Shown piece by piece: positions 2,037-29,500 of a DNA stretch of 64,000 bases. The position numbers were made by a program, and so were the translations under genes. Numbering within the stretch: the first letter of the stretch is position 1; each line of letters opens with the position of its first letter. Below the pieces are notes generated by a model. That model was not told where the DNA came from and ran no database searches. It worked only from the letters and a program-made list of their open reading frames with translations. The DNA lies in NCBI GenBank assembly GCA_008330645.1, contig VLTN01000002.1:1054001-1118000 (forward strand). The letters are read 5' to 3'. The stretch comes from Cafeteria roenbergensis (lineage: Eukaryota; Sar; Bigyra; Bicosoecida; Cafeteriaceae).

Positions 2037-3116
2037 ATGTCTCTCGCCACCCAGGACGAGCCGCCGCCCCTTCCCCTGCGCGTACACGCAGTGTACATAA
2101 CTGGGACAATCTCTGCGGCCAGCGGCTTCGATGCTGGGTCGCTGTTCTGCAGGTGGAGAGTCGAGCACGACCTGCGCAGTTGGCGCTTGGTGTCCGGCGA
2201 GCCCGAGGGCCAGACCCAAGCCGCCGAAGTTGTGAGGAATCTTCCGGCGCAACGCGCTGCTGCGACGCGACGAGTGGCGTGCAAGGGGGGAGCGCGGGCG
2301 CGAGTTGCCCTGCGTGCGGGCAGTCGCAACGCCGTTGCCCCAAAAAAGGTTCCGGCAATGCGCAGCGTCGGCGGCGGCGGGCCCGGAAGAGGCTTGCTGG
2401 CGCTCTTTCAGGTGCCCCCCTCCCGTTGCATCGGCTCGGGCTTGTGGCCGCTTTGGTCCAAAGGCTTCCTCCCAGCCGCGAACAACCGCCACAGCTGCCG
2501 AGAGTCCTCGCCGCTGGCTCGCCCGCTTGCCGCTAATTTTTGTCTTGTTTTGCAGGACGGCGAGGGCATCGCGCTGTGGGACCACCCCATAGACCTTCAT
2601 CTGTCTGCCACAGACGTGATCGGGTGGCCTTCGCTGGTGCTTGAAGTATGGCGGCACGAGTCCTCAACCGCTCGGAACGAGCAGACGGGCGTGGCGCTGT
2701 TTCGCTTCCCCTCCGTGCCAGGGGAGCACCTGCGAGAGGTTGGGGCGTGGCGTCCCAGGGGCACCGCGTGGGAGGGCTTTGTTGCCGCGCTCGGGGGGCC
2801 CAAGCCGTCCCTCAAGTCAGCTGAGGGGGCGTTCACTGTGAACGCTGACAGATCCGACCTGACCACGGTGACGGCCGGCACCGTCATCGTGGAGTGCAGA
2901 ATAGCGGTGCGCGAGATGGCAGGGTCCGGAATGGTTCTCCAGCCGATGACCGGCGCTGAGGTGAAGCTGGTCGGGGACGCCATTGCAGGTGCGTACTCCG
3001 CGGCGAGGAAAGGGGGGCGCTACATCGACGAGGAGCCCGACACAGCAGGCGCGGTCGGCGCCGACGAGGCGAGCAGTGGTCCCTCGGCCGCCCGGGGCTA
3101 CGCCGGATCAAGGTAG
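2037..3116 (+). CDS. B9D2: B9 domain-containing protein 2 (ciliary transition zone)
   Basis: B9D2 is a subunit of the MKS/B9 complex at the ciliary transition zone, where it helps gate membrane-protein entry into the cilium. Exons are 2037-2231 and 2556-3116: GTGAGG donor, TTTTGCAG acceptor, phase 0, 251 residues. The B9 (C2-like) domain starts near residue 14 and spans most of the protein. It carries the B9D2 hallmarks ITGTISAASGF, SLFCRWRVE, LLSG-like LVSGEPEGQTQ, WDHPIDLH, GWPSL-LEVW, and a VPGEH...WRPRGT segment. The tail after residue 215 or so is an extension beyond the human protein (175 aa) and is Gly/Ala-rich. The start ATG at 2037 puts the B9 domain close to the N-terminus as in homologues. 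The alternative is that the first exon begins at 2055 and is spliced to the upstream gene. Confidence 0.87.
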   Translation: MSLATQDEPPPLPLRVHAVYITGTISAASGFDAGSLFCRWRVEHDLRSWRLVSGEPEGQTQAAEVVRNLPAQRAAATRRVACKGGARARVALRAGSRNAVAPKKVPAMRSVGGGGPGRGLLALFQVPPSRCIGSGLWPLWSKGFLPAANNRHSCRESSPLARPLAANFCLVLQDGEGIALWDHPIDLHLSATDVIGWPSLVLEVWRHESSTARNEQTGVALFRFPSVPGEHLREVGAWRPRGTAWEGFVAALGGPKPSLKSAEGAFTVNADRSDLTTVTAGTVIVECRIAVREMAGSGMVLQPMTGAEVKLVGDAIAGAYSAARKGGRYIDEEPDTAGAVGADEASSGPSAARGYAGSR

Positions 3117-3433
3117 CCTGCGGCACGCTGCCGTAGCAATGCGTGGAGCTTGCATTCCCGCTTGGTGACCCAAACACTGCCACCGGCTCGCTCCCCCTCA
3201 CCGGAACAAATCCAACGCGAACGCCAAGCTATTGCAGGCGGGGCATTCCTCACCACAGGAATCACGCGCCACAGCCCCTCGGGGCAAGCGCGGGGGTCGC
3301 GGTTATTTTCGCTGCCGCGCGACGACCAAATGTCCGCAATCGACTCTGCCAGGACTTCGCCAACCCGTCAAAGCTTGCACTTGACCCCTTGCTGCCGAGG
3401 ACGGCTCAAGGACGCGCAGCCCGCACGGCTTGA
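3117..3433. other. Intergenic spacer
   Basis: No gene seen in these 317 bp; probably the 3' UTR of B9D2 and the promoter of the large cyclophilin gene. Confidence 0.4.
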
Positions 3434-6400
3434 ATGCGCCTCTCCCAGCGCAGGACGACGCGAGGGGCGCCCCGCCATTCCCGGGCGTTCCAGCTCGCGC
3501 AGTGAGAAAACGGCTGGCTTCTGCGCAAATCGCTCAGCCCCCCGGAGCGCGCGCCCCCGGCTCCAGTTTGCGCTGTCTCCGACCATGTGTCGTGTGTGGC
3601 CGCAGAGAGCTCATCGGGGGCGCTTCAGCGACCGACTCGTCACAGACAAGCGGCAGCTTTGCCGCCTCGCACGTGTTCCTAACCGTCGAGGTCGCGTCGA
3701 CAGCGCGCGAACCCAGAGCTGTGGGAGAGGGGAGAGTCATCATTGAGCTGCGAGATGATGTAGTTCCGGTGACATGCGAAAACTTCCGGCGTCTGTGCAC
3801 CGGCGAGGCGGGATCTTCTCGGCAGGCAGCTGGGCGCGACCTTCACTATCAGGGCTGCGACTTCTTCCGCATCGTGCCGGGTTTCGTAGCCTCTTGCGGC
3901 GACGTCCTCGGCCTTGGCGGCAAAGGCAACGAAGCCGCCTTGCGACCCGGGGAAACGCTCGCGAAGCCAGGGGGGCTGTTCAAGGACGAATCGTTCGCCC
4001 TTGCCCACGACTCGGCTGGGGTCGTGAGCATGGCCAACGCGGGACCGAACTCGAACGGCTCGCAGTTTTTCATCACACTGGCGCCTGCCCCCCAGCTCGA
4101 CGGCCGCCATGTTGCATTTGGCAAGGTCGTTCGGGGACTGGAGCTGGTGCAGCGCCTCGCCAGCTCGCTGCCGCTGAGGGACTTCAAACCCCAAGGCTGG
4201 ACGGCCACAGTGAAGCTGAGCGGGATTTTCCGGGGCGCCCTTCCCCCCAGCGGCGTGCCCATGTCCGCGTGGGAGCCGCTGGAGACGTTTGAGCCCGCCC
4301 CGGCCATTGTGGATGCTTCAGCCTTGCGCGTCCTCGACACCAGGCGGCTCGCCACGAGCGCGGGCTGCTTGATCCAGGTTCGCGGTCGCGGCGGCCAGCG
4401 CCGCTGGACTGCGGAGCCTGGTCCGCCCCAGGCCGATTGCGTAGTCGCTTCGGTTGAAGACCCATTGCTCGCCGAGGTGCTGCCTCGCGGGGCGAGGCTG
4501 GTGAGAGGCGCTCCCGACCTGGAGGCGCTGGACAAGGCGGGAGCCTTGCGCCTAGGGTACGCGGCTGCGGACGATATCCTCCTGGGCATAGAAGCGGAGC
4601 CGCTGTCGGCCATCCCGCCGGAACGCTGGGCAGCGGACGAGCGCTGGACGGTAACCTTCTTCGCCGATAGCCCGACCAGCCCCTCGACCTGCCTCTCACG
4701 GACCGTGAGCTGCGAGGCATCCCATACCGTTCCAGTTGCGATGCTGTCGGGGGGCAGTCTCGTGGCAATCGAATCCGCGTCGCCTCTGCGGCCGCTCCTG
4801 GGGGGGCTCGCGAGGCTCGCGGGTGTGTTTCCATCGCGCCGGGCTGCACCTGCCAGCGACAGCAAGTCTGTCATGTCACCTGCGCAGGCTGTGGCCGCAG
4901 CCCGGGAGCGTGGCTGCAGCTTGCTGTGGCACTTCAGCCCCATGCAGAGCTTCGCCGCCCCCGTTGCTCTGGCTGACAACTCAATGCTGCAAGAGGCCGA
5001 AGCCCGCTTCGTCGGCACCGAGCTCGGGATCGAGTGCGCGGACGACGCCCTGTGGAGCGTCTCGGCAGTGAGCGCTGGACCAGATGGAAACCCCTCCCCC
5101 ATCACAGTGGGCCATGTCATCAAAAGTATTCGTCTTGTGAGCGATCGAGGCGAAATTCTTGTCAAGCTGACCCCTGCGTATGGACGCTGGGCAGCTGCCA
5201 AGGCCCGGGCCGAGTACGCGATGAGGACCTCCGCGCAGTACGGAATGACGCTGTCAGCCGTAGTTCACGCCATCCCAGCTCCTCCTCAGGCAGCTCGCTT
5301 CGGACCCGGACAGGACCCCCGGGTTGATGCCTCAGGGCCGCAAGCAGCAATCGAGCACGTGTCAGCCCACGGCCGGGATATTGCAGACGCCGATCCCATA
5401 ACACCCGAAGCCAGCGTGGCTGGAAACATGGCAGCAGCGCAAGTGTCGGGCACCGCGAGGTGCGAGAGACCGGTATCAACTGCCATCCCGGCTGCGACAG
5501 CGACTGGGTCGAGTCCGCTCGGGAGCGCATCGGCGGCCTTCCCGGCTGCGCCAGCGACTGGGTCGGGTCCGTTCGGGAGCGCATCGGCGGCCTTCCCGGC
5601 TGCGCCAGCGGCTGTGTCGGGTCCGTTTGGGAGCGCATCGACGGCCTTCCCGGCTGCGCCAGCGGCTGTGTCGGGTCCGTTCGGGAGCGCATCGACGGCC
5701 GTCCCGGCTGCGCCAGCGGCTGTGTCGAGTCCGTTCGGGAGCGCATCGGCGGCCGTCCCGGCTGCGCCAGCGGCTGTGTCGGGTCCGTTCGGGAGCGCAT
5801 CGGCGGCCTTCCCGGCTGCGCCAGCGGCTGGGTCGGGTCCGTTCGGGAGCGCATCGGCGGCCTTCCCGGCTGCGCCAGCGGCTGGGTCGAGTCCGCTCGG
5901 GAGCGCATCGGCGGCCTTCCCGGCTGCGCCAGCGGCTGGGTCGGGTCCGTTTGGGAGCGCATCGACGGCCTTCCCGGCTGCGCCAGCGGCTGGGTCGAGT
6001 CCGTTCGGGAGCGCATCGACGGCCGTCCCGGCTGCGCCAGCGGCTGGGTCGAGTCCGCTCGGGAGCGCATCGGCGGCCTTCCCGGCTGCGCCAGCGGCTG
6101 AATCGGGTCCGTTCGGGAGCGCATCGACGGCCTTCCCGGCTGCGCCAGCGGCTGGGTCGAGTCCGTTCGGGAGCGCATCGACGGCCTTCCCGGCTGCGCC
6201 AGCGGCTGGGTCGAGTCCGCTCGGGAGCGCATCGGCGGCCTTCCCGGCTGCGCCGGCGGCTGGGTCGAGTCCGTTCGGGAGCGCATCGGCGGCCGTCCAG
6301 GCTGCGCCAGCGGCTGAATCGGGTCCGTTTGAGAGCGCATCGACGGCCTTCCCGGCTGCGCCAGCGGCTGGGTCGAGTCCGTTCGGGAGCGCATCGACGG

Positions 6401-9400
6401 CCTTCCCGGCTGCGCCGGCGGATGGGTCGGGTCCGTTCGGGAGCGCATCGGGCTTCACAGGCGGGATGTTCGGCCAGGCCGCCTTCCCCTCCTCGCCCGC
6501 TCCGGCCGAGGCACAGGCTGCGCCCGTCGCGTCGGGCCCGGAGGAGGACGAGAGCGACGGCGCCGACCAGGCCCCGGAGGGCGCCTCTGCGGCGGCTGGG
6601 CCGGCCGCGGATGCCGACGGCGCGGATACCGGCGGCCGCGTGCGAGTGCGCGTGGGCCGGGGGCAGAAGTTGGGCCTGACGCTGGGGGTGTCCGATGCCG
6701 ACTGCGGCGGCAGTGTGGTCGCGTCGGTCAAGGCCGGGGGCGCGGGAGCTCAGGCGGGCGTGCAGGTGGGGATGCATGTGGAGGAGGCGGCGGTGGAGTC
6801 GTCGTCTGGCGGCGTGACCGAGCGCGTGTCGCTGGGCGGCGAGGGTGTGGAGGCCTGCAAGCGTGCGATCAAGGCGATGACCAAGGCCGCCGGCTCTGTG
6901 GCGGGAGGCGTGATGGTGCTCGTGGTATCCGGCGGCGACGGCGATGCGGGGGCGGAGGGCGCTGGGGGTGCGGCTGAGGCCGGGGGCTTCGGGGGCGCAG
7001 CGGCTGGGTCGAGTCCGTTCGGGAGCGCATCGGCGGCCTTCCCGGCTGCGCCAGCGGCTGGGTCGGGTCCGTTCGGGAGCGCATCGGCGGCCTTCCCGGC
7101 TGCGCCAGCGACTGGGTCGAGTCCGTTCGGGAGCGCATCGGGCTTCACGGGCGGGATGTTCGGCCAGGCCGCCTTCCCCTCCTCGCCCGCTCCGGCCGAG
7201 GCACAGGCTGCGCCCGTCGCGTCGGGCCCGGAGGAGGACGAGAGCGACGGCGCCGACCAGGCCCCGGAGGGCGCCTCTGCGGCGGCTGGGCCGGCCGCGG
7301 ATGCCGACGGCGCGGATGCCGGCGGCCGCGTGCGAGTGCGCGTGGGCCGGGGGCAGAAGCTGGGCCTGACGCTGGGGGTGTCCGATGCCGACTGCGGCGG
7401 CAGTGTGGTCGCGTCGGTCAAGGCCGGGGGCGCGGGAGCTCAGGCGGGCGTGCAGGTGGGGATGCGTGTGGAGGAGGCGGCGGTGGAGTCGTCGTCTGGC
7501 GGCGTGACCGAGCGCGTGTCGCTGGGCGGCGAGGGTGTGGAGGCCTGCAAGCGTGCGATCAAGGCGATGACCAAGGCCGCCGGCTCTGTGGCGGGAGGCG
7601 TGATGGTGCTCGTGGTATCCGGCGGCGACGGCGATGCAGGGGCGGAGGGCGCTGGGGGTGCGGCTGAGGCCGGGGGCTTCGGGGGCGCAGCGGCTGGGTC
7701 GAGTCCGTTCGGGAGCGCATCGGCGGCCTTCCCGGCTGCGCCAGCGGCTGGGTCGAGTCCGTTCGGGAGCGCATCGGCGGCCTTCCCGGCTGCGCCAGCG
7801 ACTGGGTCGAGTCCGTTCGGGAGCGCATCGGGCTTCACGGGCGGGATGTTCGGCCAGGCCGCCTTCCCCTCCTCGCCCGCTCCGGCCGAGGCACAGGCTG
7901 CGCCCGTCGCGTCGGGCCCGGAGGAGGACGAGAGCGACGGCGCCGACCAGGCCCCGGAGGGCGCCTCTGCGGCGGCTGGGCCGGCCGCGGATGCCGACGG
8001 CGCGGATGCCGGCGGCCGCGTGCGAGTGCGCGTGGGCCGGGGGCAGAAGCTGGGCCTGACGCTGGGGGTGTCCGATGCCGACTGCGGCGGCAGTGTGGTC
8101 GCGTCGGTCAAGGCCGAGGGGCGCGGGAGCTCAGGCGGGCGTGCAGGTGGGGATGCATGTGGAGGAGGCGGCGGTGGAGTCGTCGTCTGGCGGCGTGACC
8201 GAGCGCGTGTCGCTGGGCGGCGAGGGTGTGGAGGCCTGCAAGCGTGCGATCAAGGCGATGACCAAGGCCGCCGGCTCTGTGGCGGGAGGCGTGATGGTGC
8301 TCGTGGTATCCGGCGGCGACGGCAATGCGGGGGCGGAGGGCGCTGGGGGTGCGGCTGAGGCCGGGGGCTTCGGGGGCGCAGCGGCTGGGTCGAGTCCGTT
8401 TGGGAGCGAGGGGCATCGGCGGCCTTCCCGGCTGCGCCAGCGGCTGAGTCGGGTCCGTTCGGGAGCGCATCGGCGGCCTTCCCGGCTGCGCCAGCGGCTG
8501 GGTCGGGTCCGTTCGGGAGCGCATCGGCGGCCTTCCCGGCTGCGCCAGCGGCTGGGTCGAGTCCGTTCGGGAGCGCATCGGGCTTCACAGGCGGGATGTT
8601 CGGCCAGGCCGCCTTCCCCTCCTCGCCCGCTCCGGCCGAGGCACAGGCTGCGCCCGTCGCGTCGGGCCCCGGAGGAGGACGAGAGCGACGGCGACGACCA
8701 GGCCCCGGAGGGCGCCTCTGCGGCGGCTGGGCCGGCCGCGGGTGCCGACGGCGCGGATGCCGGCGGCCGCGTGCGAGTGCGCGTGGGCCGGGGGCAGAAG
8801 CTGGGCCTGACGCTGGGGGTGTCCGATGCCGACTGCGGCGGCAGTGTGGTCGCGTCGGTCAAGGCCGGGGGCGCGGGAGCTCAGGCGGGCGTGCAGGTGG
8901 GGATGCATGTGGAGGAGGCGGCGGTGGAGTCGTCGTCTGGCGGCGTGACCGAGCGCGTGTCGCTGGGCGGCGAGGGTGTGGAGGCCTGCAAGCGTGCGAT
9001 CAAGGCGATGACCAAGGCCGCCGGCTCTGTGGCGGGAGGCGTGATGGTGCTCGTGGTATCCGGCGGCGACGGCGATGCGGGGGCGGAGGGCGCTGGGGGT
9101 GCGGCTGAGGCCGGGGGCTTCGGCCCGGCTGCGCCAGCGGCTGGGTCGAGTCCGTTCGGCTGGAGCGTCGAGTCCATCGGCATCGGCGGCCTTCCCGGCT
9201 GCGCCAGCGACTGGGTCGAGTCCGTTCGGGAGCGCATCGGGCTTCACAGGTGGGATGTTCGGCCAGGCCGCCTTCCCCTCTTCGCCCGCTCCGGCCGAGG
9301 CACAGGCTGCGCCCGTCGCGTCGGGCCCGGAGGAGGACGAGAGCGACGGCGCCGACCAGGCCCCGGAGGGCGCCTCTGCGGCGGCTGGGCCGGCCGCGGG

Positions 9401-12400
9401 TGCCGACGGCGCGGATGCCGGCGGCCGCGTGCGAGTGCGCGTGGGCCGGGGGCAGAAGTTGGGCCTGACGCTGGGGGTGTCCGATGCCGACTGCGGCGGC
9501 AGTGTGGTCGCGTCGGTCAAGGCCGGGGGCGCGGGAGCTCAGGCGGGCGTGCAGGTGGGGATGCATGTGGAGGAGGCGGCGGTGGAGTCGTCGTCTGGCG
9601 GCGTGACCGAGCGCGTGTCGCTGGGCGGCGAGGGTGTGGAGGCCTGCAAGCGTGCGATCAAGGCGATGACCAAGGCCGCCGGCTCTGTGGCGGGAGGCGT
9701 GATGGTGCTCGTGGTATCCGGCGGCGACGGCGATGCGGGCGGCGCTTCGGAGGGCGCTGGGGGGGCGGCTGAGGCCGGGGGCTTCGGGGGTGCAGCGGCT
9801 GGGTCGAGTCCGTTCGGGAGCGCATCGGCGGCCTTCCCGGCTGCGCCGGCGGCTGGGTCGAGTCCGTTCGGGAGCGCATCGGCGGCCTTCCCGGCTGCGC
9901 CAGCGGCTGGGTCGAGTCCGTTCGGGAGCGCATCGGCGGCCTTCCCGGCTGCGCCAGCGGCTGGGTCGAGTCCGTTCGGGAGCGCATCGGCGGCCTTCCC
10001 GGCTGCGCCAGCGGCTGGGTCGAGTCCGTTCGGGAGCGCATCGGGCTTCACGGGCGGGATGTTCGGCCAGGCCGCCTTCCCCTCCTCGCCCGCTCTGGCC
10101 GAGGCACAGGCTGCGCCCGTCGCGTCGGGCCCGGAGGAGGACGAGAGCGACGGCGCCGACCAGGCCCCGGAGGGCGCCTCTGCGGCGGCTGGGCCGGCCG
10201 CGGGTGCCGACGGCGCGGATGCCGGCGGCTGCGTGCGAGTGCGCGTGGGCCGGGGGCAGAAGCTGGGCCTGACGCTGGGGTGTCCGATGCCGACTGCGGC
10301 GGCAGTGTGGTCGCGTCGGTCAAGGCCGGGGCGCGGGAGCTCAGGCGGGCGTGCAGGTGGGGATGCATGTGGAGGAGGCGGCGGTGGAGTCGTCGTCTGG
10401 CGGCGTGACCGAGCGCGTGTCGCTGGGCGGCGAGGGTGTGGAGGCCTGCAAGCGTGCGATCAAGGCGATGACCAAGGCCGCCGGCTCTGTGGCGGGAGGC
10501 GTGATGGTGCTCGTGGTATCCGGCGGCGACGGCGATGCGGGGGCGGAGGGCGCTGGGGGTGCGGCTGAGGCCGGGGGCTTCGGGGGCGCAGCGGCTGGGT
10601 CGAGTCCGTTCGGGAGCGCATCGGCGGCCTTCCCGGCTGCGCCAGCGGCTGGGTCGAGTCCGTTCGGGAGCGCATCGGCGGCCTTCCCGGCTGCGCCAGC
10701 GGCTGAGTCGAGTCCGTTCGGGAGCGCATCGGCGGCCTTCCCGGCTGCGCCAGCGGCTGGGTCGGGTCCGTTCGGGAGCGCATCGGCGGCCTTCCCGGCT
10801 GCGCCAGCGGCTGGGTCGGGTCCGTTCGGGAGCGCATCGGGCTTCACAGGCGGGATGTTCGGCCAGGCCGCCTTCCCCTCTTCGCCCGCTCCGGCCGAGG
10901 CACAGGCTGCGCCCGTCGCGTCGGGCCCGGAGGAGGACGAGAGCGACGGCGACGACCAGGCCCCGGAGGGCGCCTCTGCGGCGGCTGGGCCGGCCGCGGA
11001 TGCCGACGGCGCGGATGCCGGCGGCCGCGTGCGAGTGCGCGTGGGCCGGGGGCAGAAGCTGGGCCTGACGCTGGGGGTGTCCGATGCCGACTGCGGCGGC
11101 AGTGTGGTCACGTCGGTCAAGGCCGGGGGCGCGGGAGCTCAGGCGGGCGTGCAGGTGGGGATGCATGTGGAGGAGGCGGCGGTGGAGTCGTCGTCTGGCG
11201 GCGTGACCGAGCGCGTGTCGCTGGGCGGCGAGGGTGTGGAGGCCTGCAAGCGTGCGATCAAGGCGATGACCAAGGCCGCCGGCTCTGTGGCGGGAGGCGT
11301 GATGGTGCTCGTGGTATCCGGCGGCGACGGCGATGCGGGGGCGGAGGGCGCTGGGGGTGCGGCTGAGGCCGGGGGCTTCGGGGGCGCAGCGGCTGGGTCG
11401 AGTCCGTTCGGGAGCGCATCGGCGGCCTTCCCGGCTGCGCCAGCGGCTGGGTCGAGTCCGTTCGGGAGCGCATCGGCGGCCTTCCCGGCTGCGCCAGCGG
11501 CTGGGTCGAGTCCGTTCGGGAGCGCATCGACGGCCTTCCCGGCTGCGCCAGCGGCTGGGTCGAGTCCGTTCGGGAGCGCATCGGCGGCCTTCCCGGCTGC
11601 GCCGGCGGCTGGGCCGAGTCCGTTCGGGAGCGCATCGGCGGCCTTCCAGGCTGCGCCAGCGGCTGGGTCGAGTCCGTTCGGGAGCGCATCGGCGGCCTTC
11701 CCGGCTGCGCCAGCGGCTGAGTCGAGTCCGTTCGGGAGCGCATCGACGGCCTTCCCGGCTGCGCCGGCGGCTGGGTCGGGTCCGTTCGGGAGCGCATCGG
11801 GCTTCACAGGCGGGATGTTCGGCCAGGCCGCCTTCCCCTCTTCGCCCGCTCCGGCCGAGGCACAGGCTGCGCCCGTCGCGTCGGGCCCGGAGGAGGACGA
11901 GAGCGACGGCGCCGACCAGGCCCCGGAGGGCGCCTCTGCGGCGGCTGGGCCGGCCGCGGGTGCCGACGGCGCGGATGCCGGCGGCCGCGTGCGAGTGCGC
12001 GTGGGCCGGGGGCAGAAGCTGGGCCTGACGCTGGGGGTGTCCGATGCCGACTGCGGCGGCAGTGTGGTCGCGTCGGTCAAGGCCGGGGGCGCGGGAGCTC
12101 AGGCGGGCGTGCAGGTGGGGATGCATGTGGAGGAGGCGGCGGTGGAGTCGTCGCCTGGCGGCGTGACCGAGCGCGTGTCGCTGGGCGGCGAGGGTGTGGA
12201 GGCCTGCAAGCGTGCGATCAAGGCGATGACCAAGGCCGCCGGCTCTGTGGCGGGAGGCGTGATGGTGCTCGTGGTATCCGGCGGCGACGGCGATGCGGGG
12301 GCGGAGGGCGCTGGGGGTGCGGCTGAGGCCGGGGGCTTCGGGGGCGCAGCGGCTGGGTCGAGTCCGTTCGGGAGCGCATCGGCGGCCTTCCCGGCTGCGC

Positions 12401-13395
12401 CAGCGGCTGGGTCGAGTCCGTTCGGGAGCGCATCGGCGGCCTTCCCGGCTGCGCCAGCGGCTGGGTCGGGTCCGTTCGGGAGCGCATCGGCGGCCTTCCC
12501 GGCTGCGCCAGCGGCTGGGTCGGGTCCGTTCGGGAGCGCATCGGGCTTCACAGGCGGGATGTTCGGCCAGGCCGCCTTCCCCTCCTCGCCCGCTCCGGCC
12601 GAGGCACAGGCTGCGCCCGTCGCGTCGGGCCCGGAGGAGGACGAGAGCGACGGCGACGACCAGGCCCCGGAGGGCGCCTCTGCGGCGGCTGGGCCGGCCG
12701 CGGATGCCGACGGCGCGGATGCCGGCGGCCGCGTGCGAGTGCGCGTGGGCCGGGGGCAGAAGCTGGGCCTGACGCTGGGGGTGTCCGATGCCGACTGCGG
12801 CGGCAGTGTGGTCGCGTCGGTCAAGGCCGGGGGCGCGGGAGCTCAGGCGGGCGTGCAGGTGGGGATGCATGTGGAGGAGGCGGCGGTGGAGTCGTCGTCT
12901 GGCGGCGTGACCGAGCGCGTGTCGCTGGGCGGCGAGGGTGTGGAGGCCTGCAAGCGTGCGATCAAGGCGATGACCAAGGCCGCCGGCTCTGTGGCGGGAG
13001 GCGTGATGGTGCTCGTGGTATCCGGCGGCGACGGCGATGCAGGGGAGGAGGGCGCTGGGGGTGCGGCTGAGGCCGGGGGCTTCGGGGGCGCAGCGGCTGG
13101 GTCGAGTCCGTTCGGGAGCGCATCGGCGGCCTTCCCGGCTGCGCCAGCGGCTGGGTCGAGTCCGTTCGGGAGCGCATCGGCGGCCTTCCCGGCTGCGCCA
13201 GCAGCTGGGTCGGGTCCGTTCGGGAGCGCATCGGCGGCCTTCCCGGCTGCGCCAGCGGCTGGGTCGAGTCCGTTCGGGAGCGCATCGACGGCCTTCCCGG
13301 CTGCGCCAGCGGCTGGGTCGGGTCCGTTCGGGAGCGCATCGGCGGCCTTCCCGGCTGCGCCAGCGGCTGAGTCGGGTCCGTTCGGGAGCGCGTAG
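3434..13395 (+). CDS. Cyclophilin-type PPIase fused to FG repeats and nine PDZ-like modules
   Basis: The N-terminal 190 residues (about 3660-4240) are a cyclophilin fold: TCENFRRLCTGEAG, FFRIVPGF, SMANAGPNSNGSQFF and LDGRHVAFGKV. Catalytic Arg55, Phe60, Gln111, Phe113 and His126 equivalents are present, but Gln63 is Ser and the cyclosporin-contact Trp121 is Gln, so activity may be reduced. A unique region of about 400 residues follows (4240-5485). Then come 18-residue PFGSAS-type repeats and nine acidic-linker/PDZ-like modules. The tentative first exon is ATG 3434 to 3501 (GTGAGA donor), spliced to 3657 in matching phase; the continuous frame upstream of 3657 has no ATG. The frame is open 3657-8114. 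It then changes through small indels between about 8115 and 9240 and near 10279 and 10330, and is open again to TAG 13393-13395. Cyclophilin plus FG repeats recalls RanBP2/Nup358, so a nuclear-pore role is possible but unproven; the PDZ modules are not known there. Inferred length is about 3.3 thousand residues. Confidence 0.8.
5487..6448 (+). repeat. 54-bp coding minisatellite (18-residue FG repeat), first block
   Basis: About 18 tandem 54-bp units encode variants of PFGSASAAFPAAPAAGS, each with one Phe-Gly (three units PLG, one PFE). Substitutions are few and keep the 18-residue period. The same unit recurs between all downstream PDZ-like modules in runs of roughly 2 to 8. Confidence 0.95.
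6449..13389 (+). repeat. Higher-order tandem array: FG spacer + acidic linker + PDZ-like module, nine copies
   Basis: Nine copies of a composite unit; the shortest spacing is 690 bp. Each has a GFTGGMFGQAAF segment, an acidic linker (EEDESDG), a PDZ-like domain and a variable run of 54-bp FG units. PDZ-like domains start near 6640, 7330, 8020, 8770, 9426, 10238, 11027, 11987 and 12737. Each has a GLTL carboxylate-loop-like motif, an SVKAGGAGAQAGVQVGM core, and a final VMVLVVSGG strand. Linker variants (DGADQ or DGDDQ; AADADG or AAGADG) are shuffled between copies, as expected from unequal exchange or gene conversion. Copies are almost identical, so expansion is recent. Confidence 0.93.
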
Positions 13396-17740: not shown

Positions 17741-19624
17741 TCAGATGGCGGGACTTTCCTCTTCCGCGTCGCCTCCAGGCGCTGCAGCCGCAGCGGCCGA
17801 GTAGGATCCGCCTGCAGGCCCTGAGGTGCCCCCTGACGAGGCGGCAGCCGCTGCTGCACTCGCGTCCGCTTCGCTCGCAACGCGCACGGCTGCGGCTGCC
17901 TGCTTCGTGTCGCCGCCGGCCCTGCGCCAGGCCTCGACCTTGCCTTCCTCCGCAGTCGCCGCCTCGGCCGAAGACGCAACGATGCGGCTCCAAAGGTTCT
18001 CCGCAGCCTCCGCGCGCATGGCCTCCATCACGGCAAAATCAAGCAGCATCTGCTTCGAGTCGGCCAGGCGCATCCCGCGCAGCTGCGCAACCTCGTCGAG
18101 CAGCTCGTTGTTTGCAGTCACGAACGCCTCTCGGGCCTCATCCACCGCGGAAACCGCTTTGGCAACTTCCGCGTCGGCAGCCGGGCCCTTGGTAGGGTCG
18201 CCGCGAACGCGGTCCTGCGCCACGCGCTTGGCCTCGAGGCGCTCCTTGCTTGCCTGGAGCGAAGCGCTGACTGCCTCGCGGTACCGGAATGCCGCCTGGG
18301 CTGCCTCTGCGACCGCGATGGCGTCGCGGAGGTCTTCCCGGAACCAGCGCAGCTCGCCCGAGGCAAGCATCGCCTCCATCTTCCCCTGGTTGTGCATGGT
18401 CGACCCGATTTTGGAGAAGCTGGCACCCAGGTCCTCCTTCTCGTGGTTGCCCAGGGTCTCGTAGCCCTTCCAGTACTCGAGCATCCGGCCGGCGGCTTCG
18501 AGGCGCTTGGTGAGCATGGATCCTGCTGCCTTCTCGGCCCGCACCAGCGCCGCATGGACGCCGTTGATGTAGGTGCTGAGCTCCTCGAAGCTGAGGTCAG
18601 CAGCCGTCCGCGTCGCAGGGTCGGACGGGGCTCCGCGGACGCGGTCGACGGCCGAGCCGATGGCGCTTCCGGCGGCGCTCATCATGGAGAACACGCCCCT
18701 CTGCATCGACTCAGTCATTTTAGGGCGCGTGGCATCCTTTACGGCGGTGAAGCCAGTGTCTTCCAGGGTCAGGAACTGGAACACCGGCTCTGCGAGCGAG
18801 CGGGAGGGCGGGGGAGAGCCGCGCGGCAGTGAGGAAGCGGGCCCAGTGAGGAAGCGGGCCCAGTGAGGAAGCGGGCCCAGTGAGGCCGCCCGCAGAGCAC
18901 CGCGGCGGCGAGCACAGAGACTTTGGGACACCCCGGCGTGAGCAGGCTTTGCGGCCGCCTGCGATGTCTGGAAGCAGCAGCAAGGCCTCACCTGCCACGC
19001 GCAGACGAGGGTGCGACGCAATGCGGTCCACGAAGCGCTGCAGGCCGCGGTTGCGTGACTCGATGAACTCGTCATGGAAGTTCTTCACGGGCAGCCCGTC
19101 CTTTGGGGGGAGCGGGGGAACGGCCACGGTTGGCGCCACCATCAGCAAGCGCTTGCGGAGCCAATCGAAATCTGAGTACCGGCGCACCACCTCGAACGTG
19201 GACTGCTCGAAGCGCTCGATGCCGCGCTGCTGCGGTGCATATCCTTGTGTCAAGTGGACGGGGGCGCGACAGACACGGTCGAGGCGAGGGGGAGGTCCTC
19301 TCGGGCGAGGCGGGTGCCTGTCCGCATGGAAACTTGCTGCTCCGCCGGGGGCCCGCGGCCAGCCGGCCCCGCCCGCACCCAGAGCCACGAGCGCAACGAG
19401 GCAATGGCACCGCCTGCACTCTTGCGAGAGAGGCGAATCGCCCAAGTCGCAGTCTCGCCTGGCGCAGCAGGGGGGCGCGCCCCCATCGCACAACCGAGCT
19501 GGCTCACCGAGGAAACGATCTTGTACGTCGTGTAGGGTGCGCGCCCGTCGCCTTGCGTCTGCGGCTCCCCCACACGGATGTCCAAAAAGCTGTCCCCTCC
19601 GCTGGCGGTGCCGGTGGCGGCCAT
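17741..19624 (-). CDS. PX-BAR sorting nexin (SNX1/SNX4-like)
   Basis: Sorting nexins bind endosomal phosphoinositides through a PX domain and shape tubules with a BAR dimer in retrograde or recycling transport. Exons are 19624-19508, about 19229-18992 and 18789-17741 (GTGAG donors, CAG acceptors, phases 0 and 1), giving 467 residues. The PX domain (residues 12-125) shows YTTYKIVSS, the lipid-binding FEVVRRYSDFDWLRKRL, the proline turn VPPLPPKDGLPVKNF, and EFIESRNRGLQRFVDRIASHPRL. A helical BAR region (about 170-400) follows, with KMTESM, LSTYINGVHAALVRAEKA and LDFAVMEAMRAEAAENLW. The Ala/Gly-rich tail looks disordered. The first acceptor could also be three bases further on. Which SNX subgroup it belongs to cannot be fixed by eye; length is close to SNX4. 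Confidence 0.87.
18829..18882 (+). repeat. 17-bp tandem repeat in sorting nexin intron 2
   Basis: Three perfect head-to-tail copies of agtgaggaagcgggccc lie inside the 202-bp intron. On the gene strand (-) the reverse complement is C/T-rich, so it may add to the polypyrimidine character upstream of the acceptor. Confidence 0.85.
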
Positions 19625-26564: not shown

Positions 26565-29500
26565 TTAAATGAGGGGCGCATCGTCTTCCTGAGGTTGCTT
26601 GAACGCCTCGGGGACTTCTGAGTCGCTCTCGTCAAACGAGGGCAGTGTGCTCGACCCAGCCGGTTGAGACACCTTGCCCAAGTCCGAGGGCTCGGCATCC
26701 CAGAGCGAGTCGATTTGTGCCTGAGCAGACGCAACAACGTCGTCAGAACCTAGGCCGCTCTCGGCCCAATGGTCATTAGCCCCGAGAGGATTTGCCACCG
26801 CCTCAGCCGCATCAGCCACCGGCTCCACAGCTGCCTCGGCCGCATCAGCCACCGGCTTCGACGCTGCCGCCGCCGCATCAGCCACCGGCTTCGACGCTGC
26901 AGCCGACGCATCGGCCACCGGCTTCGAAGCTGCCTCGGCCGCATCAGCCACCGGCTTCGACGCTGCAGCCGACGCATCAGCCACCGGCTTCGAAGCTGCC
27001 TCGGCCGCATCAGCCACCGGCTCCACAGCCGCCTCGGCCGCATCAGCCACCGGCTTCGACGCTGCCGCCGCCGCATCAGCCACCGGCTCCACAGCTGCCG
27101 CCGCCGCATCAGCCACCGGCTCCACAGCCGCCTCGGCCGCATCAGCCACCGGCTTCGACGCTGCCGCCGCCGCATCAGCCACCGGCTTCGACGCTGCAGC
27201 CGACGCATCGGCCACCGGCTTCGAAGCTGCCTCGGCCGCATCAGCCACCGGCTCCACAGCCGCCTCGGCCGCATCAGCCACCGGCTTCGACGCTGCCGCC
27301 GCCGCATCAGCCACCGGCTCCACAGCTGCCGCCGCCGCATCAGCCACCGGCTCCACAGCCGCCTCGGCCGCATCAGCCACCGGCTTCGACGCTGCCGCCG
27401 CCGCATCAGCCACCGGCTTCGACGCTGCCGCCGCCGCATCAGCCACCGGCTCCACAGCCGCCTCGGCCGCATCAGCCACCGGCTCCACAGCCGCCTCGGC
27501 CGCATCAGCCACCGGCTTCGAAGCTGCAGCCGACGCATCAGCCACCGGCTCCACAGCCGCCTCGGCCGCATCAGCCACCGGCTCCGAGCTGCGCTCCGCC
27601 GCATCAGCCACCGGCATCCACAGCCGCCTCGCCGCCGCATCAGCCACCGGCTCCACAGCCGCCTCGGCCGCATCAGCCACACGGCTTCGACGCTGCCGGC
27701 CGCCGCCACCGCATCAGCCACCGGCTTCGACGCTGCCGCCGCCGCCGCATCAGCCACCGGCTCCACAGCCGCCTCGGCCGCATCAGCCACCGGCCACCGG
27801 CGCTCCACAGCCGCCTCGGCCGCATCAGCCACCGGCTTCGAAGCTGCAGCCGCCGCATCAGCCACCGGCTCCACAGCCGCCTCGGCCGCATCAGCCACCG
27901 GCTCCACAGCCGCCTCGGCCGCATCAGCCACCGGCTCCACAGCCGCCTCGGCCGCATCAGCCACCGGCTCCACAGCCGCCTCGGCCGCATCAGCCACCGG
28001 CTCCACAGCCGCCTCGGCCGCATCAGCCACCGGCTCCACAGCCGCCTCGGCCGCATCAGCCACCGGCGCTGCAGCCGACGCATCGCCACCGGCTTCGACC
28101 TGCCGCCGCCGCATCAGCCACCGGCATCTCCACAGCCGCCTCGCCGCCGCATCAGCCACCGCCGCTCCACAGCCGCCTCGGCCGCATCAGCACACCGCCG
28201 CATCAGCCACCGGCCACAGCCGCCTCGGCCGCATCAGCCACCGGCTTCGACGCTGCAGCCGACGCATCAGCCAGCCTGCCTCCGCCGCATCAGCCACCGG
28301 CTCCACAGCCGCCTCGGCCGCATCAGCCACCGGCTTCGACGCTGCACAGCCGCCTCGGCCGCATCAGCCACCGGCTCCACAGCCGCCTCGGCCGCATCAG
28401 CCACCGGCTCCACAGCCGCCTCGGCCGCATCAGCCACCGGCTCCACAGCCGCCTCGGCCGCATCAGCCACCGGCTTCGACGCTGCAGCCGACGCATCAGC
28501 CACCGGCTTCGACGCTGCCGCCGCCGCATCAGCCACCGGCTCCACAGCCGCCTCGGCCGCATCAGCCACCGGCTCCACAGCCGCCTCGGCCGCATCAGCC
28601 ACCGGCTTCGACGCTGCAGCCGACGCATCAGCCACCGGCTTCGAACCTGCCGCCGCCGCATCAGCCACCGGCTCCACAGCCGCCTCGGCCGCATCAGCCA
28701 CCGGCTCCACAGCCGCCTCGGCCGCATCAGCCACCGGCTCCACAGCCGCCTCGGCCGCATCAGCCACCGGCTCCACAGCCGCCTCGGCCGCATCAGCCAC
28801 CGGCTCCACAGCCGCCTCGGCCGCATCAGCCACCGGCTTCGAAGCTGCCGCCGCCGCATCAGCCACCGGCTCCACAGCCGCCTCGGCCGCATCAGCCACC
28901 GGCTCCACAGCCGCCTCGGCCGCATCAGCCACCGGCTCGGTCGACGCACTCGAGGCATTCGCACTCAAACCAGACTCCAATGCGTCACCACTGGTTGCGT
29001 TGCGGATAGCACCGGAGCTGTTGATTGAACTGTTGCTGGCTCCAGTGGCTGCCCCAGCATCGGCAGGCGAAGACTCCAAGCCAGCGGCGGAACCGTCTGG
29101 CATGACTTCGCCGGACACGACATCTCCACCAAGCGCCTGTGGCGTGGTCGCTGCAGCGTCCGCTGAATCGGCATCGCTGGCGGGCTCGGAAGGGAGCCCT
29201 TCGTCGTTGACAGCTGGCTCTCCTGGCGAGGGTGCCATCATGGCTGAGAGGGCGCTGTTGGCAGCCTGCGCTGCGAACAACGTTCCAGCCCATGCCATGC
29301 TCGCCCCAACGACCAGAGCCTCCCAGGACACTGCCCCAGCTGTGGACGCCGCCGCCTGAACGATAGCGTGGGTACCAGGCGCCATGCCCATCTGCTCTGG
29401 CACGCCCTCGATGGCGAGCGCGCCCAGCAGCACTGAGAGACCGGCCACGACCACGGCTACAATGGTGCAGGCGAGGCCAAGGCCGCCGCAGGGACCGCGC

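Follow-up and report, generated by a model that had tools for sequence, protein, structure and literature searches.

Outside the gene described here, we know of a cyclophilin paired with phenylalanine-glycine (FG) repeats only from Nup358 (RanBP2), while repeated PDZ domains on flexible linkers are a feature of multi-PDZ scaffold proteins such as MPDZ and InaD-like. The gene studied here lies on the plus strand at positions 3330-13395, a candidate first exon included, of a 64,000-nucleotide stretch of the Cafeteria roenbergensis genome (assembly GCA_008330645.1, contig VLTN01000002.1, positions 1,054,001 to 1,118,000; hereafter the window), and it holds, in this order, a cyclophilin domain, a linker, an FG array and nine modules parted by varying numbers of a 54-bp FG unit. 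Nup358 is described as metazoan-specific in a passage of one paper (PMC4758718) and as vertebrate-specific in a passage of another (PMC8421043), and a table by Neumann and colleagues (2010; PMC2951903) has entries for Nup358 under Opisthokonts only. Among the open-licence PMC papers listed by our searches, no title or abstract opening told of a cyclophilin-FG-PDZ fusion. From sequence comparison, we tentatively read the gene as encoding a lineage-specific FG-nucleoporin-like scaffold in or next to the nuclear-pore FG phase, a reading to which we give slightly less than an even chance.

The gene has a clear cyclophilin-type peptidyl-prolyl isomerase (PPIase) domain, matched by Pro_isomerase PF00160 with 124.3 bits against a curated cut-off of 21.7 (E 7.1e-36). 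Alignment to 1qng revealed that the catalytic set of CypA, which we take to be R55, F60, Q111, F113, L122 and H126, is conserved throughout and that the positions of M61, Q63 and W121 are V, S and Q; with the tryptophan missing, a low affinity for cyclosporin would be expected. Searches of the same-genome assembly (167 contigs; 36,303,456 bp) gave 27 Pro_isomerase matches, a number that counts the present domain and some pieces of split genes, and the best identity to another cyclophilin of the genome among eight loci compared was 51%. The cyclophilin frame follows a stop at 3382 and is open from 3385 to 8355, with a stop at 8356, so that cyclophilin, linker, first FG array and first two modules share one open frame. 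From the stop at 3382 up to the domain the frame has no ATG, which means that translation must begin in an upstream exon or at a non-ATG codon. The splice starts computed for this frame comprise 42 options from four ATGs, of which ATG 3330 with splice sites 3367/3449 is one.

Following the linker, the FG field begins with a tandem array at 5482-6451 (18.0 copies of a 54-bp, 18-residue unit, 93% match) that as a repeat lies far beyond chance. Across the whole gene there are 49 full-length ungapped 54-mers, 44 of which keep the FG core, and the motifs counted in all three forward frames between 5400 and 13400 are 52 PFGS, 4 PLGS and 1 PFES. The first array contains 13 FG in 326 residues (4.0 per 100) with no lysine or arginine, four aspartate or glutamate residues and an A/P/S/G/T share of 86%, and thereby has the many FG motifs in low-charge spacers that are expected of FG nucleoporins. 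These repeats resemble those of channel nucleoporins from the same cell. Nup62 on contig 25, marked by Nsp1_C (32.5 bits against a cut-off of 24.1), has 12 PFG in 249 residues (4.8 per 100), no charged residue and 88% A/P/S/G/T, and a probable Nup54 array on contig 7 has 5 PFG in 100 residues (5.0 per 100), no charged residue and 82% A/P/S/G/T. Downstream of this NPFG array, in another frame, lies a PF13874 Nup54 match (E 6.6e-5; 23.4 bits against a cut-off of 30.5), and array and match may be exons of one gene. The window array thus matches Nup62 and Nup54 in its PFG within Ala/Pro/Ser spacers, at 4-5 FG per 100 residues and with zero K/R in all three, and differs from them in its four acidic residues where the others have no charge.

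A genome-wide search with an exact pattern of three PFG motifs spaced 11-21 residues apart, F encoded by TTC and proline by any codon but CCC, gave 44 matches at four loci: 23 in the window gene, 3 in Nup54, 5 in Nup62 and 13 in a contig 8 protein with NPFGGGGGGGAV repeats. Allowing any proline codon raised this to 158 matches and, among the matches listed, added one array, on contig 26, that by eye reads PKGGKPG on the plus strand. An N/S-PFG pattern at shorter spacing, which cannot reach the 54-nt period of the window gene, matched 21 times, always at one of the other three loci, and had an empty control. With a looser FG pattern there were 15 matches, spread over eight loci, against 47 in the control. 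Genome searches with Nucleoporin_FG and Nucleoporin2 (Nup98) returned no matches with their controls silent too, so we claim no absence from them.

Two by-products of these searches concern other possible FG proteins. The contig 8 protein is an open frame (locus L058:3700-4989, minus strand) with 15 NPFG/SPFG repeats in glycine-rich spacers, a candidate FG nucleoporin or NPF-motif adaptor; it has no Pfam family at E ≤ 1, and among its eight neighbouring ORFs (open reading frames) three have a family at E ≤ 0.01, none nucleoporin-like. Glycine-FG-type triples found with the looser pattern at contig 55:98223-98305 and contig 6:75364-75446 might belong to further FG proteins.

The nine modules come with GGMFGQAAF at 6460, 7150, 7840, 8590, 9249, 10053, 10849, 11809 and 12553, and LGLTLG likewise occurs nine times; acidic stretches precede the PDZ-like beads. 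The copies are nearly identical, with 24 base differences from the majority summed over 495 columns and with the protein cores of six aligned copies 98-99% identical to the first. All 12 genome matches of the module fall at the locus of this gene. In viral contigs scanned with the module (202 pattern stretches) and with cyclophilin plus linker (6), no relative was confirmed.

That these modules are PDZ-like is plausible. For a single module, under Pfam scan filters that drop most matches above E about 0.1, two families were listed and both are PDZ (E 0.025 and 0.037), the match covering the first half with the LGLTLG loop. Both score below their cut-offs (PF00595 14.9 against 23.2 bits; PF17820 14.8 against 27), and over the ORF at 10351-13392 they reach 18.5 and 15.2 bits with a best PDZ E of 0.0027. 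A profile of the module copies gave four PDB hits at E ≤ 10, a non-PDZ chain first (0.17) and a consensus-PDZ chain second (0.22), while phmmer of a single module against PDB gave 14 weak hits with 0 PDZ. Six loci of the genome have PDZ hits, of which L022 was dropped by a stop filter; against the PDZ frames of the other five, the module reached p 0.015 for L026 and p 0.21-0.92 for the remaining four. AlphaFold models of the module were uninformative (predicted local distance difference test, pLDDT, 41.7 and 39.5), and Foldseek found no match at E ≤ 0.001 for either of these low-confidence models; we give no weight to its poorer matches, among which 4 of 5 for the first model were PDZ at E 5-10 and 0 of 12 for the second. 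The PDZ identity proposed in an earlier, sequence-only reading of this DNA is thus weakly supported, with two PDZ families below cut-off and a better aminotransferase match in one scan (see below).

Between cyclophilin and FG array, the linker has no Pfam family in 4291-5400, and a 424-aa query (window 4231-5502) matched only itself in the genome. Its stretch 4987-5295 may tentatively be a divergent tenth module copy: among 3000 shuffles each, 3 of the module and 13 of the linker reached its Smith-Waterman score of 55 against the module, and none of the controls was significant (cyclophilin p 0.07, the B9 neighbour upstream p 0.68, reversed module p 0.22).

Beyond the stop at 8356 the local frame of the modules runs through 0, 1, 0, 1, 2 and 0, and alignments placed six frame-breaking sites between 8117 and 10328. 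These are an added A near 8117, 5 nt near 8408, a C in a C run near 8667, 22 nt scattered over about 9124-9180, and the loss of one G near 10277 and of another near 10328, both in G runs; unit 5 has an additional 6 nt that keep the frame. The six sites add up to +27 nt, which is divisible by three, and from unit 7 to unit 9 the original frame is restored; the gene ends where TCG has become TAG in the last 54-mer (stop at 13393). Because the changes are mostly single-base or homopolymer ones (four of the six sites, three of these in homopolymer runs), because they lie inside a near-identical array of 7 kb, and because together they leave the frame unshifted, the breaks are probably assembly errors, which fit better than decay. 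With this, the cyclophilin, the FG field with its regular 18-residue spacing, the nine repeated modules and the joining of cyclophilin to FG arrays in one open frame all hold as the sequence-only reading had them, whereas its single predicted protein of about 3,300 residues is interrupted by the six sites, the cyclophilin frame stopping at 8356, and its start at 3434 falls away because that ATG is out of the cyclophilin frame. Coordinates of all parts are collected in Table 1.

Table 1. Parts of the cyclophilin-FG gene, in window coordinates.
Feature	Position	Strand	Remarks
Candidate first coding exon	3330..3366	+	ATG 3330; predicted GT-AG intron 3367-3448 joins cyclophilin frame
Cyclophilin-type PPIase domain	3670..4257	+	PF00160 E 7.1e-36; PDB cyclophilins up to 137.6 bits
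Linker region	4258..5481	+	no Pfam family (4291-5400 scanned); single genome match
Possible tenth, divergent module copy	4987..5295	+	25% identity to module; tentative
First FG array	5482..6451	+	54-bp unit encoding SSPFGSASAAFPAAPAAG, 18 copies
Module and FG spacer, unit 1	6460..7149	+	
Module and FG spacer, unit 2	7150..7839	+	PDZ-like core 7321-7626
Unit 3	7840..8589	+	+1 nt near 8117, +5 nt near 8408
Unit 4	8590..9248	+	+1 nt in C run near 8667; scattered insertions about 9124-9180
Unit 5	9249..10052	+	locally open, frame other than unit 1
Unit 6	10053..10848	+	two single-G deletions near 10277, 10328
Unit 7	10849..11808	+	
Unit 8	11809..12552	+	
Unit 9 and terminal FG repeats	12553..13395	+	TAG inside last 54-mer

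If transcribed as one gene, the locus would encode a large scaffold with an N-terminal cyclophilin, a linker, and 18-residue PFG arrays among which nine near-identical PDZ-like beads are interspersed. At its presumed place by the pore, the FG spacers could mix with the FG repeats of Nup62 and Nup54 and bind transport receptors, the beads, should they take a PDZ fold, may tether several copies of a partner, and the cyclophilin would act at the edge of the pore, where it would dock a proline-containing client and isomerise it.

Several observations weigh against this FG-nucleoporin-like scaffold. The Pfam scan of the gene, which covered three ORFs with families at E ≤ 1 (8359-9074, repeat sequence, lies outside them as its own ORF), found no nucleoporin anchor, Ran-binding domain or RanBP2 zinc finger; Nup62 and the probable Nup54 have a recognizable nucleoporin domain, and none was detected in the window gene. 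The earlier suggestion of a pore component does gain support from the PFG style that the gene shares with these two proteins. Those proteins also have NPFG where the window repeats have S/GPFG, and Nucleoporin_FG stays below its cut-off (25.6 against 32.2 bits), a weak test in that the Nup54 array of the genome fails it too (17.1 bits) and Nup62 is unlisted at E ≤ 1. When the exact PFG pattern was reversed as a control, its 66 hits outnumbered those of the original; arrays of arbitrary motifs are therefore common, the four PFG loci are no significance test and rarity alone is no proof. For the beads, Aminotran_4 (E 1.8e-4, itself below cut-off) beats PDZ in the ORF at 10351-13392, and comparison with PSD-95 PDZ3 did not go beyond chance for the module (p 0.29) or for two linker stretches (p 0.65 and 0.60). 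The possible linker copy gave p 0.06-0.83 against the five PDZ frames of the genome, none below 0.05, and its lowest value, p 0.005, against an antisense frame of the PDZ locus L025; since this nonsense comparison reached 0.005, p-values of such size are not strong evidence. Strong purifying selection is unsupported, because the differences among module copies are 15 nonsynonymous and 9 synonymous (358 and 137 sites) and because base variation among the 49 FG units (47, 24 and 22 by codon position) is not concentrated at third positions. Finally, the frame is broken mid-gene.

The strongest rival shares the same verified parts and is, in our view, credible yet doubtful: a scaffold in the cytoplasm or at membranes that combines an N-terminal PPIase with beads, PDZ-like or other, and in which minisatellite slippage has lengthened the Ala/Pro/Ser linkers and the FG motif is incidental. 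Large tandem arrays are frequent in this genome (for example, a 64-copy 33-bp array in the same window), so the 54-bp repeat alone is no proof of function; most of the variation among FG units falls where it changes the amino acid, and the near identity of the nine copies implies that expansion was recent or homogenised. Slippage accounts less well for an array whose motif, FG density and lack of charge are like those of Nup62 and Nup54, and for exact-pattern PFG arrays at four loci only. Decay of the gene, with translation of cyclophilin, linker and first modules ending at 8356 and repeat debris beyond, would explain the six breaks and the lack of a strong purifying signal in the modules; we consider it quite improbable, given that the cyclophilin frame is open in units 1, 2, 7, 8 and 9, that the net shift preserves this frame, and that most sites are single-base changes inside the repeat. 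The published assembly of Cafeteria BVI, a strain that PMC8547959 calls C. burkhardae, is described as raw PacBio reads assembled with Canu and polished with Racon using PacBio and then Illumina reads (PMC6972860), and polishing may fail in such repeats. Its reported GC (guanine plus cytosine) content is 70.1% (PMC6972860), and a further alternative is that two or more separate genes, a cyclophilin and a repeat gene, share one open frame by GC-rich chance. Long spurious ORFs do occur here, such as a 940-codon antisense ORF at 10048-12870, and the cyclophilin frame has no ATG of its own, but no stop separates the parts, the linker may hold a module copy (tentatively), and across cyclophilin and linker the GC at the three codon positions looks like that of coding sequence, which makes separate genes very improbable. 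Position 2 has the least GC in cyclophilin, linker and modules, and the B9 neighbour shows the same; the pattern is strand-blind, since a gene on the minus strand looks alike when read on the other strand. In the FG array GC is highest at position 2.

Should the FG-nucleoporin-like scaffold indeed lie at the pore, animals would not be alone in having a cyclophilin-FG protein, which would suggest that the coupling of a prolyl isomerase to an FG barrier evolved twice, and the scaffold would exemplify an FG chain with folded beads inserted into it. We consider it unlikely that this stramenopile independently built a Nup358-like pore protein in which PDZ-like beads replace Ran-binding domains and zinc fingers and alternate with FG barrier segments; the aminotransferase match and the antisense control weaken the PDZ evidence and with it this reading. 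The PFG style of Nup62 and the probable Nup54 offers a usable signature for further FG nucleoporins in this virus-host model.

Elsewhere in the window, a B9-C2 ciliary basal body protein (2037-3113, plus strand; PF07162 E 1.6e-31) lies directly upstream of the cyclophilin gene, and a Vps5 C-terminal-like domain lies at 17741-19072 on the minus strand (PF09325 E 3.6e-9), adjoined by an ORF with a PX domain by eye, perhaps a sorting nexin. The 33-bp array (26798-28938, 64 copies) is another large minisatellite.

We do not class the gene as a Nup358: cyclophilin and FG repeats are present, but Ran-binding domain, zinc finger and TPR were not found in the three ORFs, the TPR scan (no hit at E ≤ 1) leaving the predicted first exon outside. 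Ran_BP1 has two matches in the genome, on contigs 6 and 54, and neither RanBP1-type locus has an open frame of at least 250 aa with at least 6 FG. At the contig 6 locus (L018), the Ran_BP1 match shares one open frame with a galactokinase-like stretch (by eye), either a read-through of neighbouring genes or a fusion.

The window gene therefore resembles RanBP2/Nup358 in combining a cyclophilin and FG repeats in one large protein, and departs from it by having no Ran-binding domain, zinc finger or TPR hit and by its added PDZ-like beads; of the claim that its architecture is unlike RanBP2, the missing domains stand and the PDZ identity is weak. The cyclophilin of Nup358 is also C-terminal, whereas here it lies near the N-terminus. 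Compared with multi-PDZ scaffolds such as MPDZ and InaD-like, the gene differs in its near-identical modules below the Pfam cut-off, its N-terminal cyclophilin and its FG spacers, and it shares with them the plan of repeated PDZ-like modules on flexible linkers.

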